DNA of 6,619 bases from Victivallales bacterium (GTDB taxonomy: Bacteria > Verrucomicrobiota > Lentisphaeria > Oligosphaerales > Oligosphaeraceae): positions 1 to 6,619 of the forward strand of contig JAGCTA010000330.1 of assembly GCA_017963875.1 (NCBI GenBank). Direction: 5' to 3'. The notes below the pieces were generated by a model. That model was given only the letters and a program-made list of their open reading frames with translations. It searched no databases and was not told the DNA's origin. A program made the translations under genes and the position numbers. Of the stretch, positions 1,162 through 6,619 are shown piece after piece. The stretch's first letter is position 1; each line of letters starts with the position of its first letter.

Positions 1162-3183
1162 ATGAAAGAAAAGAACGAACTTCGTTTTCGTCAGATCCAT
1201 CTTGATTTCAATACACCGCTTGAAATCAATGACGTCGGTGCAAAATTCGACAGGAAAAAGTGGCAGGACTGTCTGAAACTGGCCCATGCAAATTCCATCA
1301 CATGCTTTTCATGCTGTCATCATGGCTACAGTTACCATCCGACGGAAATCGGCATGATGCATCCTAAGTTGAAGTTCAATCTTCTGCGAGAACAGGTTGA
1401 TGCGGCACATGAAATCGGTGTGAACGTCCCCATCTACATGACCGTCGGATACAACAACCGCATTGCGGCATTGGAGCCTGGCTGGCTTCAGATAAATGAG
1501 GACGGCATGATTTCCCAGCCTCCCTTCCATGCCGCCTACCGCCTGCTCTGTCTGAATTCAACCTATCTGGATTATGTCTGCCATCTGACTGAGGAAGCGG
1601 CACACTTTTTCCGTGATGCGGACGGTATTTTCTTTGACATACTTGTCCAGAACAACTGCTGCTGCCCTCGCTGCATTGAAAGCATGAGGAAACGCGGGTA
1701 TGACCCAACCAATATCGAACACCGCATGGCTTTCTCCAACGAAGTCATCGAGGAATGCTGCAGAAAACTTAATCTGGCGGCCCGTTGCATCAATCCTGAA
1801 TGGCCCATCTATCATAACAACACAAATCTTCTCCAGCCAGGAAGACAACCGCTTCTGAAGTATTGCAGCCATATTGAACTGGAGTCACTCCCGACCGCCG
1901 CGCATAACTACGACCATTATCCAATGCTTGCAGCATACGTTCGGACGCTTGAACCAGACTTTCTCGGCATGACTGCCAAATTCAATGCGCTATGGGGAGA
2001 CTACGGCGGTTTCAAGCATCCTAATGCACTGCGATATGAATGCTCGGCAATGCTCGCACAAGGTTCAAAATGCAGCATCGGAGACCAACTCCATCCTTCA
2101 GGAGAAATGGATGAAAGTTCCTGCCGCCTCATTGGAGAAGCCTATAAGGAAGTTGAAAAGAAGGAGCCATGGTGCGGTCATGTGAAATCAGCGGCAAACG
2201 TCGCTCTTCTTGCGACAAATGCTTTCCAGAAAAAGAACAACTACGATATCAAAAGCGAAACTGGCGTCTGCCGACTCCTTCTGGAAGGACACATTCCCTT
2301 CGACCGCATCGACGAAAAACATCCCTTTGACAATTACAAGGTCTTGATTCTTGCAGACAGCCTTCGGCCAGATTCAGAATTGCGCGCACGACTTCAGCAG
2401 TTCATCGCCAACGGCGGCCGATTGATTCTTTCTGGCACATCAGTGCTCAAGGCAGAAAACGATGAACTTGCCTTCGATCTGCCAATTCAGATTGAAGGCA
2501 TGACAACAGAATACCCCAATTTCGTGAAATGTGCTCCTGACATCAAGCCAGATGGCGTCGATTCCCCTATTGTGATGTACTATCCTTCCATGAAAATGAA
2601 AGTGTCTGGCGGCAAAAGCCTAGGGGAAATCTATGATCCCTATTTCACAAGGAGTTACCTGCATTTCTGCTCGCACATTCATTCGCCTGCAAAGACCGAG
2701 CCATCTGGATATGACGCAGGCATCCTTACGGACAACATCCTCTATTTCGCGCACCCTGTCTTTGAGTTATATGCGGCTTACGGACAAGTGATATTCAAGC
2801 AATATGTCCTTAATGCAGTTCATGCGCTGATCGATGACATCCTGCAGGTCAAGACGACATTGCCGTCACAAGGACGCGTGACCATCATGGAACAGGAAGC
2901 AGAACGACGCTATGTTGTTCATGCGTTGTATGCCAATACGATACTTCGCGGGATGTCCGTGCCGCCCATCGCCCCCGAGCAGACTGCGGCAAGGCCATAC
3001 GAAGTCATTGAGGATCTGGTTCCCCTTTACGATCAGGAATTCGCACTCAGACTGCCTCGTAAAATCCATCGGGCGATGCTTCAGCCACAGGGAGAGGAAA
3101 TCCCATTCAGTTATGATGGCGATGTTCTGAAACTGACCTTGAAAAAACTATTGTGCCACCAGATGATCGTCCTTGAGTACTGA
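1162..3183 (+). CDS. Putative glycoside hydrolase, GHL6-like catalytic domain with beta-galactosidase-trimerisation-like domain
   Basis: This 673-residue protein has no signal peptide and about twenty cysteines, so it is probably cytoplasmic. The N-terminal part (about 8-340) looks like the TIM-barrel of the hypothetical glycosyl hydrolase family GHL6. It opens with QIHLDFNTP and has CCHHGYSYHP at 51-60, the strand-end motif DGIFFDI at 154-160, a cysteine cluster CCCPRC at 166-171, HIELESLP at 237-244 and a conserved-looking MTAKFNALWGDYGG at 270-283. D154, D159, E239 and E241 are the acidic residues best placed to be catalytic, but this is inference. Residues about 342-440 resemble the flavodoxin-like trimerisation domain of GH42 beta-galactosidases (NVALLATNAF, NYKVLILADS, FIANGGRLILSG). 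Residues about 570-673 look like a C-terminal beta-sandwich. The family usually acts on oligosaccharides, and the substrate cannot be told from sequence. An in-frame TAA at 1153 makes this ATG the first possible start. It has no Shine-Dalgarno site, only an A-rich leader. The gene ends 28 bases from the convergent copper pump and has no operon partner in view. Confidence 0.8.
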   Translation: MKEKNELRFRQIHLDFNTPLEINDVGAKFDRKKWQDCLKLAHANSITCFSCCHHGYSYHPTEIGMMHPKLKFNLLREQVDAAHEIGVNVPIYMTVGYNNRIAALEPGWLQINEDGMISQPPFHAAYRLLCLNSTYLDYVCHLTEEAAHFFRDADGIFFDILVQNNCCCPRCIESMRKRGYDPTNIEHRMAFSNEVIEECCRKLNLAARCINPEWPIYHNNTNLLQPGRQPLLKYCSHIELESLPTAAHNYDHYPMLAAYVRTLEPDFLGMTAKFNALWGDYGGFKHPNALRYECSAMLAQGSKCSIGDQLHPSGEMDESSCRLIGEAYKEVEKKEPWCGHVKSAANVALLATNAFQKKNNYDIKSETGVCRLLLEGHIPFDRIDEKHPFDNYKVLILADSLRPDSELRARLQQFIANGGRLILSGTSVLKAENDELAFDLPIQIEGMTTEYPNFVKCAPDIKPDGVDSPIVMYYPSMKMKVSGGKSLGEIYDPYFTRSYLHFCSHIHSPAKTEPSGYDAGILTDNILYFAHPVFELYAAYGQVIFKQYVLNAVHALIDDILQVKTTLPSQGRVTIMEQEAERRYVVHALYANTILRGMSVPPIAPEQTAARPYEVIEDLVPLYDQEFALRLPRKIHRAMLQPQGEEIPFSYDGDVLKLTLKKLLCHQMIVLEY

Positions 3184-3211: not shown

Positions 3212-3442
3212 TTATTCAATCCCCATGACCGTGTATCCTGCGTCCTCTACAGCGGTCTTGAGGACTTCTGGCGCAATGCCAGACGCAGAACTAACAACAG
3301 CGTTCTTTTTTTCCAATGAGACTGTCACACCAGTCACGCCAGGGATTTTCGCCAAAGCGTCATTCACATGCTTGACACAGTGCTGACACATCATGCCGTC
3401 AATGGATACAGTCTGTTTCACTTCACTTTTTGATGTTGTCAT
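3212..3442 (-). CDS. copZ: Possible free CopZ-like copper chaperone made by internal initiation in copA
   Basis: An in-frame ATG at codon 767 of the pump gene would give a 76-residue protein, the usual size of CopZ/Atx1-type chaperones. It has the Cu(+)-binding GMMCQHC near residue 16, as in free chaperones, and ends with the typical AVEDAGYTV. The ATG is preceded by AAGGAG with a nine-base spacing, a better ribosome-binding site than that of the full-length gene. In the fusion these bases are read as part of the linker K-K-E-Q-P-T. This suggests that a separate copZ was joined in frame to copA and kept its own start signal. Production of the free protein is inference; the domain itself is certain. 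Confidence 0.45.
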
Positions 3443-5740
3443 TGTGGGTTGCTCCTTTTTTATATTTCGATGGAAAAATCTTAGACGAAGCGCATTGGAA
3501 ACGACGCAGAATGAACTCGCGCTCATCGCAACCGCTCCGAACACTGGCTTGAGCAGAATGCCAAATTTGAAGAATACTCCTGCCGCCAACGGAATGCCGC
3601 AGGCATTGTAGAAAAACGCCCAGAAAAGATTCATCTTGATGTTTCTGATGGTCGCTCGGGATAGTTCAAATGCCTCCACGACACCGTTAAGGTCGCGGCC
3701 TGAAAGCACTACATCTGCCGATTCAATGGCGATATCCGTCCCTGCCCCAATGGCAATGCCGATATCCGCGCGCGTAAGCGACGGTGCGTCATTGATGCCA
3801 TCGCCAACCATCGCGACATGCCGTCCCTGCGCCTGGAATTCCCTCACTATGCGTTCCTTGTCCTGTGGAAACAGTTCAGAGCGAACATCATCAATGCCAA
3901 GTTGAACGCCAACGGCCTCAGCCGTGCGACGATTGTCCCCCGTCAACATGACCACGTTCAGACCATAGCCGCGCAGTCTTGAAATCGCAGACTTCGCCGT
4001 TGTCTTTGGGACATCTGCCGATGCGATAATACCAAGGACATGCGTATCGTCCGTAAGGAACAACGGAGTCTTCCCCTGTGACGCCAGTGCCTCTGCCTTT
4101 TCAAGCCAGTCGTCGCCTTTTGAATCAAGCATTTCCAGCGTACGGCGATTGCCAAGATGGTACTTCGTACCATCGAACACGGCTGAAACGCCCTGCCCCT
4201 CGGCTATACTGAAATCTTTCGTTTCACCTGGCTCAATGCCCTGCTCCCGTGCATATTGCGAAACCGCCTGCGCCAGCGGATGCTCCGAACCATATTCAAG
4301 ACTCGCCGCAATCCTCACAAGGCATTCTTTGCTAATATGTTGTGCTGGAATGACATCAGTTACTGTCGGATGCCCCTCCGTTATCGTACCTGTCTTGTCG
4401 AGCAGTATGGTATCGGCATGATGAAGACTCTCTAGGGCCTCGGCATTTTTAAAAAGGATGCCAAGTTCTGCGGCACGCCCAGTTGCCACCATGATGGCGA
4501 CTGGTGTTGCAAGGCCAAGCGCACATGGGCAACTGATGACAAGCACTGCAATCGCGCGTTCCAGCGCAAAGGTGAAATCCTGTCCGCACATCATCCACAC
4601 AATCGCCGTAAGAATCGCTATCATGATGACTGACGGGACAAAGATACCTGCGACTCTATCAGCCAGTTTGGATATTGGTGCTTTCGATGCCGCCGCCTCC
4701 TCAACCAGTCGGATGATTTTCGCAAGCGTTGAATCCTCTCCGACGTGCTCCGCGCGAATCTTCAGGAAGCCGAGACCATTGACCGTGGCTCCAGTCACAA
4801 CATCCCCGACGCTTTTCTCAACGGGAATGCTCTCTCCTGTAATGGCGGACTGGTCCACTGCGGAATGTCCCTCAATTACAACACCGTCAACAGGGATTTT
4901 CCCACCAGGCCTCACGAGCACCTCATCGCCGACAACCAACTCTGCCACAGGGACATCAGTCTCTTTTCCATCCCGAAGAACAGTCGCAGTTGCAGGAGCC
5001 AACTCCAGCAAACGGTCGATGGCATCTCCTGTACGACCTTTCGCCCGTGCCTCCAGCCATTTGCCAAAAGTAATCAACACGACAATCATGGCTGAGGAAT
5101 CAAGGTAAACATTCATCCCGCAAGCCATTATCTGCGTCCAGTCCCGCTCGGGTGCGCCGAGAGCCAAAGCAATTCTGAAAAGCATTGCAATGCCATAGAC
5201 ATACCCAGCCCCTGCACCGATGGCGACCAGCGAATCCATGTTCGGCGTCAACCGTAAAAGACGCTTCAGACCATTCTCGAAAAAATGGCGGTTAATGACA
5301 TGGATGGCAGTACACAACAGCAATTGAATCAAGACGTTGACAATGACATAGCGACCATTCTCTGTCAACGGATTCAGCACCTGTGGCAACGGTCCTCGAA
5401 ACAGCCCCCACAACCCAATGTAGGCCAGTGGAATCAAAAGAAGGAACGACGGCACCAGACGAGCCTTCAAAGAAGAAATCTCCTGTGCGGCAACATTGTC
5501 GTTCCCACGAGACGCTTTTTGCCCCGCTCCTTGCACAACCGCACCATAACCAGCCGCTGCAACGGCATCGCAAACAGCCTGCGTGTTCGTCACAGATTCG
5601 TCAATCTCAAGATCCATCGTGTTCCGAAGAAGATTCACATTGACGCATGAAACACCCGCAACAGCACCTGCCGCTTTCTGGACATGCGCCTGACAAGCGG
5701 CGCAAGTCATCCCTGTAATGTCAAATCTGACTTTTTTCAT
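3212..5740 (-). CDS. copA: Cu(+)-exporting P1B-type ATPase with N-terminal HMA domain and fused C-terminal CopZ-like domain
   Basis: This 842-residue inner-membrane pump uses ATP to expel Cu(+) from the cytoplasm. In order it has: an N-terminal HMA domain with GMTCAAC (10-16); the actuator-domain TGES (301-304); the transmembrane CPC (404-406); the phosphorylation motif DKTGT with D448; the nucleotide-binding SEHP (485-488) and GNRR (530-533); MLTGDN (598-603); and GDGIND (646-651). Y711-N712 in the seventh helix and M739/S743 in the eighth match the Cu(+) site of CopA proteins, which argues for Cu(+)/Ag(+) over Zn or Cd. About eight membrane helices are visible. The unusual part is the C-terminus. 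The pump should end near residue 760, but a short linker joins it to a second HMA domain with GMMCQHC (782-788) and a CopZ-like fold to residue 842. Such fusions are seen in some gut anaerobes. The 5' leader has no clear Shine-Dalgarno site. No copper regulator lies nearby. It is in the same orientation as the glycosidase at 6007 but separated by a 266-base repeat-rich gap. Confidence 0.95.
3423..3461 (-). promoter_or_regulatory. Candidate -1 ribosomal frameshift site in copA
   Basis: The heptamer A_AAA_AAG (3461 down to 3455) is in the correct phase for simultaneous -1 slippage (codons ATA AAA AAG), the same heptamer as used in dnaX. After slipping, ribosomes would read [10 protein letters not shown] and stop at TGA (3425-3423), giving a pump without the C-terminal HMA domain. 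No Shine-Dalgarno stimulator lies in the usual place upstream, and I see no strong downstream hairpin, so efficiency is uncertain. Escherichia coli copA is known to use -1 frameshifting to make a free chaperone, which gives a precedent in the same gene family. Confidence 0.35.
3452..3457 (-). promoter_or_regulatory. Internal ribosome-binding site inside copA
   Basis: AAGGAG on the minus strand lies nine bases before the ATG at 3442. It is the strongest Shine-Dalgarno match I noticed in the window and sits exactly at the boundary between pump and chaperone domain, where coding constraint is weak. Confidence 0.5.
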
Positions 5741-5753
5741 CTACTGTCTTCAT
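5721..5753 (-). other. Short upstream frame overlapping the copA start
   Basis: An ATG at 5753 opens a ten-codon frame ([10 protein letters not shown], then TGA) that overlaps the first codons of copA in another frame. AAGAGA just upstream is a weak ribosome-binding site. It might lower or tune copA initiation, or may be chance. Confidence 0.2.
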
Positions 5754-5790: not shown

Positions 5791-5808
5791 GTCGGAGCAG
5801 ACCGCACA

Positions 5809-5822
5809 GCCGCGTGAGCGGC
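5809..5822. repeat. Hairpin repeat, copy 1 (GCCGC-GTGA-GCGGC)
   Basis: A perfect five-base stem encloses the tetraloop GTGA, a GNRA loop if read on the plus strand. It is followed by GGAGGA, similar to the GGAAGGA after copy 2. Confidence 0.7.
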
Positions 5823-5835
5823 GGAGGACGGGGAG

Positions 5836-5880
5836 CCGTGGGTGAAGCGAAACAGCAGAGCGGTGGAGCGAAACCCACGG
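5836..5880. repeat. Long inverted repeat containing an internal direct repeat
   Basis: The eight-base arms CCGTGGGT (5836-5843) and ACCCACGG (5873-5880) are perfectly complementary and enclose 29 bases. The sequences 5841-5853 and 5862-5874 are direct repeats matching at 12 of 13 bases (GGTG-A/G-AGCGAAAC), spaced by 21 bases. The AGCGAAAC core is shared with the loop and right arm of the hairpin at 847-876. Confidence 0.65.
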
Positions 5881-5903
5881 AAAACAGCGTTAATGTTGTG
5901 AGA

Positions 5904-5917
5904 GCCGCGTTAGCGGC
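5904..5917. repeat. Hairpin repeat, copy 2 (GCCGC-GTTA-GCGGC)
   Basis: It has the same five-base stem as copies 1 and 3, with one change in the loop (GTTA instead of GTGA). Stem conservation with loop variation is what a structure-preserving repeat would show. Confidence 0.7.
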
Positions 5918-5942
5918 GGAAGGAACCCATCGCTACAGCGGA

Positions 5943-5967
5943 CCGCAGCCGCGTGAGCGGCAAGCGG
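5943..5967. repeat. Hairpin repeat, copy 3, with extended stem
   Basis: The core GCCGC-GTGA-GCGGC (5948-5961) is identical to copy 1. An outer CCGC (5943-5946) pairs with GCGG (5964-5967) across a one-by-two internal loop, giving nine pairs in all. The preceding ACCGCA resembles the ACCGCACA before copy 1, so the repeat unit is longer than the hairpin alone. Confidence 0.7.
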
Positions 5968-6006
5968 AGCCCACAGTTCACCCCTGCCCCACGTCTCCTA
6001 CAACCG

Positions 6007-6619
6007 TCACGCAAGTGCAATCATCGCACGGTCAGCCAGCACCAGCGGCGAATCGCCACAAGGGACGTCCAAGAAAAGCGTCCGCCCACCGCATTCGCAA
6101 ATATTGTCATCATGTATTTTATAGACTGCGCCTGAGATCGGGTCGATCAGCACGGGATTCTTCAGTTTGAAACCGTTTATGATAATATCCGCGCGGCCCA
6201 TGAAATCGCCGTCACCAGGGATGCCCGAACGGTCCCAGTAGACGACTTGGTGCGCGCCGTCTGATTTCCTCTCAAAGGCACTTGCGTGCATGCGGTTCAG
6301 ATAACGCGCGGCGCAGCCGCCTGGAATCTGCTCCAGGCCGTCGTTGAAGAGCGTCGTCATGTTGATGATGGCGCCGTAGGCGAGTTTCGGACGAATGACC
6401 TTGTGGTTCTCGTCCGCCATCAGCAGCCCCTTGCGGTTGATCTGGCGGCCGATGTGATTGAAGTCGCAGACCGTGAAGACAGAGGAGAACACATCCATGC
6501 AGTAGTCGCCGATGAAGCGCCGCAAATCCCACTTCGCCTGAGTCAGCTCTGTCCACGGATAGTGTCCGAGTGCGAATCTCTGTGTCTCCTCCGACGGGCA
6601 GCCGTTTTCACCCTGCCAC
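6007..6619 (-). CDS. Clan GH-A-like glycoside hydrolase, partial (N-terminus beyond right edge)
   Basis: The frame ends at TGA (6009-6007) and is open to the window end, giving 203 codons; the start lies outside. The visible part begins W-Q-G-E-N-G-C-P-S. A glutamate at such a strand end, followed by N-G, is typical of the nucleophile position in retaining clan GH-A enzymes; this assignment is inference. Helical sequence follows (AKWDLRRFIGDYCMDVF), then a segment of the kind that closes a TIM barrel (IRPKLAYGAIINMTTLFND). The last 90 or so residues look like the C-terminal beta-sandwich common in these enzymes (VVYWDRSG, PVLIDPISGAVYKI, FLDVPCGDSPLVLADRAMI). The exact GH family and substrate are not recognised. 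An internal TTG at 6525 could be taken for a start but lies mid-domain. The gene reads toward copA, but the hairpin-rich gap argues against a tight operon. Confidence 0.65.
   Translation of the reverse strand, partial: WQGENGCPSEETQRFALGHYPWTELTQAKWDLRRFIGDYCMDVFSSVFTVCDFNHIGRQINRKGLLMADENHKVIRPKLAYGAIINMTTLFNDGLEQIPGGCAARYLNRMHASAFERKSDGAHQVVYWDRSGIPGDGDFMGRADIIINGFKLKNPVLIDPISGAVYKIHDDNICECGGRTLFLDVPCGDSPLVLADRAMIALA

Follow-up and report, generated by a model that had tools for sequence, protein, structure and literature searches.

A candidate internal start for a free CopZ-like chaperone within a fused copA gene

Can one copA gene supply both a copper pump with a tethered chaperone and the same chaperone in free form? 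The question is raised by a copA-like gene in the window analysed here, a stretch of 6,619 nucleotides from a Victivallales bacterium, in which the linker ahead of the C-terminal HMA domain contains a Shine-Dalgarno (SD) sequence followed by an in-frame ATG (Table 1). Comparison with related genes suggests that internal initiation probably gives this host, from the one gene, a free CopZ in addition to the pump with its tethered chaperone.

The gene and its internal start signal

The 842-residue product is ordered as an N-terminal HMA domain, a P1B copper ATPase, a short linker and a C-terminal HMA domain. Pfam recognizes two HMA domains, an E1-E2 ATPase and a hydrolase, and a score of 605.6 bits against TIGR01511, copper-translocating P-type ATPase (cut-off 397), places the protein with CopA of the P1B type. 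Across the copA start, at window position 5753 on the minus strand, lies a ten-codon out-of-frame ORF with a weak SD (-1.7) that may be a leader or serve coupling. Further upstream (window 5808-5973) a 27-nt repeat beginning AGCCGCGT(G/T)AGCGGC occurs three times.

Table 1. Features of the copA-like locus, in positions of the window
Feature	Position	Strand	Basis
copA-like gene, 842 codons plus stop	3212..5740	-	ORF, domain and family matches
Start codon of the full-length product	5738..5740	-	SD duplex energy -0.3
Linker codons K-K-E-Q-P-T, residues 761-766, holding the start signal	3443..3460	-	Sequence and ORF
Internal Shine-Dalgarno AAGGAG	3452..3457	-	Duplex energy -7.2; signal conserved in relatives
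Internal in-frame ATG, codon 767	3440..3442	-	Nine bases downstream of AAGGAG
Putative second product, free CopZ-like protein, 76 aa plus stop	3212..3442	-	Predicted from the start signal
C-terminal HMA, residues 777-837, with GMMCQHC metal-binding motif	3230..3412	-	Pfam; similarity to CopZ structures

The sequence-only reading of this DNA had placed AAGGAG nine bases before an in-frame ATG, and this is exact, the nine bases being CAACCCACA. Its statements that the linker residues are the translation of this start signal and that the full-length gene lacks a clear SD are borne out as well: the energy of the duplex with the anti-SD is -7.2 kcal/mol for the internal ATG versus -0.3 kcal/mol for the copA start. 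Among the 20 in-frame ATGs listed, a list that omits codon 1 and includes one entry past the stop (codon 845), codon 767 has the strongest SD; as the next two reach -6.8 and -6.3, energy by itself sets codon 767 little apart within this single gene. The window's own single-gene synonymous p-value is 0.23. Across related genes, an energy of -7 is attained by 99 of 3,013 other in-frame ATGs. The family most often has this same nine-base spacing (79 of the 131 loci with GGAG before the start), and the Pfam HMA match begins ten residues after the internal ATG.

The isolated C-terminal domain was queried from Thr768, one residue after the Met, in the Pfam, NCBIfam, structure and protein searches. 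It scored 56.9 bits against PF00403 (cut-off 24.8) and contains CxxC, and the 75-residue query was similar to the solved CopZ structures 1k0v and 2qif. Scores against the NCBIfam models for CopZ and copper-ion-binding proteins stayed below their cut-offs (NF047957, 70.5 for a cut-off of 85; TIGR00003, 58.9 for 62). The protein search gave 12 matches, among them P0235, a 76-residue protein that begins exactly at Met767; as its contigs are of at most 627 bases, P0235 shows only a gene caller's choice of start.

Under the two-product reading, ribosomes starting at codon 1 would translate the whole frame, giving a copper-exporting P1B ATPase that carries a tethered CopZ-like domain at its C-terminus. 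Other ribosomes would bind the linker AAGGAG of the same mRNA and start at codon 767, yielding a free CopZ-like chaperone of 76 residues. The arrangement would have arisen when a downstream copZ was fused to copA with its own ribosome-binding site retained. We infer initiation in this organism, and a product that is stable, binds copper and delivers it to the pump or buffers it.

The start signal in fused copA genes

Fused copA genes were collected by a profile scan of genome contigs, of which the best 80 of 589 loci were used. Further samples, named after their centre loci, were taken from 198 genomes of the phylum of a Treponema locus, 120 of a Pseudoflavonifractor family and 120 of the class of a Selenomonadaceae locus. 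Two more phyla were sampled from Clostridia and Bacilli loci (299 and 295 genomes), and lower-ranked matches from these two were added by region. The search profile A2 included K-E-E..M linkers, which biases the samples toward such loci, not toward their codons. There were 242 sources including the window, five of them plasmid regions; leaving out four duplicate loci and 12 sources that lacked the anchor motif (11 scored separately; L117 not), 226 unique loci with the motif comprised 191 fused and 35 unfused genes. The scored set consists of 188 fused copA genes including the window, three fused plasmid regions being excluded. The start was taken as an ATG, GTG or TTG located 6-18 codons (6-11 for non-ATG) before the last GMxCxxC, chosen blind to the SD, and an SD energy of -6 or below was called strong, with counts also made at -8 or below. 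These DNA-level relatives belong to Bacillota and Spirochaetota, while the nearest Lentisphaerota relatives were compared as proteins only.

Almost all of the fused genes (183/188) have a start codon at the beginning of the domain, ATG in 179, GTG in three and TTG in one. The SD reaches -6 in 158 of the 188 and -8 in 133, compared with 315 and 58 of the 3,299 other in-frame ATGs of the same genes; 30 genes are without a strong SD and five without a start. When synonymous codons were drawn from each gene's own usage, the observed mean energy of -8.90 was reached in 0 of 1,000 replicates (null mean -5.10, sd 0.19), and the same 0/1,000 was obtained for 126 genes thinned at 75% core identity. Single-gene p-values fell below 0.05 in only 14 of 81 genes; since the residues themselves permit the SD, most of these values are unconvincing and the strong test is the joint one only. 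The least selected subset, from the 299 and 295 genomes at E <= 1e-28, has an SD of -6 or below in 56 of 73 genes, and the eleven fused loci missed by the anchor have a start in 11/11 and such an SD in nine. A like layout is found in the fused plasmid regions of Ruminococcus albus 7 (SD AAGGAGG, -10.8), Subdoligranulum variabile (-10.6) and Roseburia sp. 831b (-5.6). The contrast was unchanged under variants of the scoring window and of the anti-SD. The RNA around the starts is weakly structured (mean -3.2 versus -12.2 kcal/mol at other ATGs), for which AT-rich linkers account in part.

Proteins with tandem C-terminal HMA domains (27 in all) locate the signal further. A Met lies 6-10 residues before the motif in 22 of their 27 last domains versus 1 of 33 earlier domains. 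At the DNA level, an SD and ATG precede only the last domain in L111, L112 and L124; in L116, L178 and L181 no convincing site was seen ahead of any of the domains. The natural stop codon allows separate synthesis of the last domain only.

The sequence-only reading had proposed as a check that the signal be kept while the linker drifts. This is what the 188 fused genes show: the SD is retained beyond synonymous expectation, it shifts codon frame, and an ATG, GTG or TTG follows. As in known genes within genes, there is an in-frame start with an SD at initiation spacing and, in Bacillota and Spirochaetota, conservation beyond coding. On these sequence comparisons, the start signal is genuine and subject to selection across the wider family.

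Nearest relatives and origin by fusion

Among the best 120 of 7,997 scored proteins, the three closest other proteins are 64-65% identical to the window's CopA, and the named next matches are from Victivallales or Lentisphaeria metagenome-assembled genomes (MAGs), which points to a probable Lentisphaerota source. Many Clostridia proteins among the matches listed share the HMA-ATPase-HMA layout and carry a Met immediately ahead of the final HMA. Of the 20 nearest proteins listed, five keep the Met and K-E: the window's own (P0001), P0002-P0004 and P0008, the last four having differing linkers. The other 15 (P0005-P0007 and P0009-P0020) have neither and retain the C-terminal HMA, which suggests that close relatives can do without the signal. 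In 60 genomes with a fused copA, 22 had another HMA in a short frame (E <= 1e-10) and six had no other HMA match, counts that were made by eye with the threshold set afterwards and with many of the MAGs incomplete; a free CopZ is thus not always otherwise absent. A scan of viral contigs for CopA relatives found none.

The sequence-only reading had likened the linker to an intergenic region captured by fusion, and the unfused relatives support this. In 22 of the 35, an HMA gene starts between -20 and +120 nt of the copA stop, with a strong SD (-6 or below) in 16; most of these neighbouring copZ genes share the copA frame, which is partly due to a search bias toward that arrangement. In L201 the SD of copZ lies inside the end of copA. 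In L235 copZ opens in a different frame, 20 nt ahead of the copA stop, and AAAGGAGG falls inside copA; this locus could represent a stage between separate and fused genes. Fusion through stop loss with the copZ start signal retained would be the simplest history for these sequences. A tree built with FastTree from 104 ATPase cores shows at least 15 changes in the codon frame of the signal, 9 in SD strength class and 6 in fusion state; as fused genes were over-sampled, the fusions cannot be dated from these numbers.

Alternative readings and known systems

That selection acts on the residues of the linker, as a charged tether rich in K and E for which AAGGAG is simply the usual coding, would fit the frequency of K-E and E-E dipeptides, but it is the most improbable of the alternatives given the codons. 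GGAG precedes the start in 131 of 162 loci, in the codon phases xxG/GAG (100), GGA/G (28) and xGG/AG (3), and is spelled by K-E, E-E, T-E, Q-E, M-E, K-G, E-G, Q-G, N-G or R-R; since it occurs in all three codon frames, the conserved thing is the nucleotides and not one peptide. In the 163-gene set, Lys-Glu at the site uses GAG in 72 of 83 cases versus 171 of 524 elsewhere in the same genes (Fisher 3.6e-21), kinship making such p-values too small and a thinned set giving a like result (54/63 versus 125/406). Its Lys is AAG in 70 of 83 versus 238 of 524, whereas it becomes AAA when the SD sits in the other frame (25 of 26 Lys-Gly in that set). Also against a protein tether, Q-G, N-G, T-E, M-E and R-R appear when they spell GGAG, and the Met is missing from the earlier tandem domains. 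Another reading is that the SD-like site slows elongating ribosomes and so helps the pump to fold or to enter the membrane, with no start being made. Pausing at internal SD sequences has been proposed in general and is disputed, and the site does lie shortly after the last transmembrane segment. However, pausing needs no start at initiation spacing, which all but five of the fused genes have, and the four non-ATG starts are GTG or TTG (the rule admitted only these and ATG), so we regard this explanation as very unlikely.

The signal may instead be a relic, an SD and ATG left over from a separate copZ, unused and not yet decayed. Unfused copA-copZ neighbours exist, so that fusion accounts for the origin of the signal, and it is often gone among the nearest relatives. 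Decay is nevertheless hard to reconcile with an SD kept among representatives that have ATPase-core identities below 66% (70 of 80), with retention beyond synonymous expectation, or with a position that stays while the codon frame moves as often as the tree indicates, and a relic is accordingly improbable. It is also unlikely that the signal is active in Bacillota and Spirochaetota and silent in this Lentisphaerota-like host, through a weaker motif or low use of SDs. The loss of Met and K-E in 15 of the 20 nearest proteins listed would agree with silence, as would the window's SD being weaker than the family mean (-7.2 versus -8.9) and two of the three starts scored in the window being without an SD (copA, -0.3; the gene starting at 1162, +2.9). 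On the other side, the third, the 724 gene, has an SD as strong as the internal one (-7.2), the spacing of nine bases is the modal one, and P0002-P0004 and P0008 keep K-E and Met despite their differing linkers.

Two products from one gene, which we prefer for this locus, has parallels. In PMC10187127, which cites Meydan 2017 and Drees 2017, programmed frameshifting in E. coli copA is described as yielding the pump and a free copper chaperone. The likeness is a single gene for a copper pump and a free, here putative, chaperone; the difference is that here the C-terminal domain would be freed, by the proposed internal initiation. In E. coli the free chaperone is reportedly the N-terminal domain, made at a slippery site. 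In PMC10327210, the Rpn genes-within-genes have their C-terminal domain made separately from an internal in-frame ribosome-binding site and start, though with a toxin-antitoxin function and in another protein family. Similarly, PMC11899642 describes Cas11 as a small protein translated in frame from within large-subunit genes, but it belongs to a CRISPR interference complex. Separate copA-copZ operons, as in L187 (Haliovirga abyssi) and L189 (Enterococcus faecalis), share the gene order, with copZ having its own start a few bases past copA; they differ in that a stop codon ends copA, leaving no tethered form. The literature search, whose coverage took in few subscription papers, found no paper describing internal initiation in copA. 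Within these sources, internal initiation for a free C-terminal domain is already known from Rpn and Cas11, and the proposed copper case would be new.

More broadly, the comparisons suggest that a copper system in which one gene gives two proteins is probably old and widespread, spanning Bacillota, Spirochaetota, Lentisphaerota and perhaps methanogenic archaea, where P0221, named Methanocorpusculum bavaricum, has the linker S-K-E-E-T-M (protein only). In such a system an absorbed copZ would remain translatable, SD strength would set the ratio of free to tethered forms, and the origin would be independent of the E. coli frameshift. It would also have been missed in annotation; RefSeq annotates the long CDS alone in Roseburia sp. 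831b and R. albus 7 (L185, L186). If so, a free copper chaperone that annotation does not show is produced from within the pump gene in many gut bacteria, and pump and chaperone from one gene evolved at least twice, by frameshift in E. coli and by internal initiation here. A fusion would then have retained both joined and free forms in a ratio set by a few bases, which is directly testable in cultured species, and it would warn that conserved second genes can hide in the C-terminal domains of fused genes.

Three other frames occupy the window around copA. An open-ended frame of 203 residues (6007-6618, minus strand) has no Pfam match. The frame at 2-733 on the minus strand encodes a protein that is hydrophobic at its N-terminus and carries a divergent InlB B-repeat domain (PF18998). 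The plus-strand frame at 1162-3183, opened by an ATG without an SD, encodes a 673-residue protein with a Pfam GHL6 domain and a weak, sub-cut-off match to a beta-galactosidase trimerisation domain.
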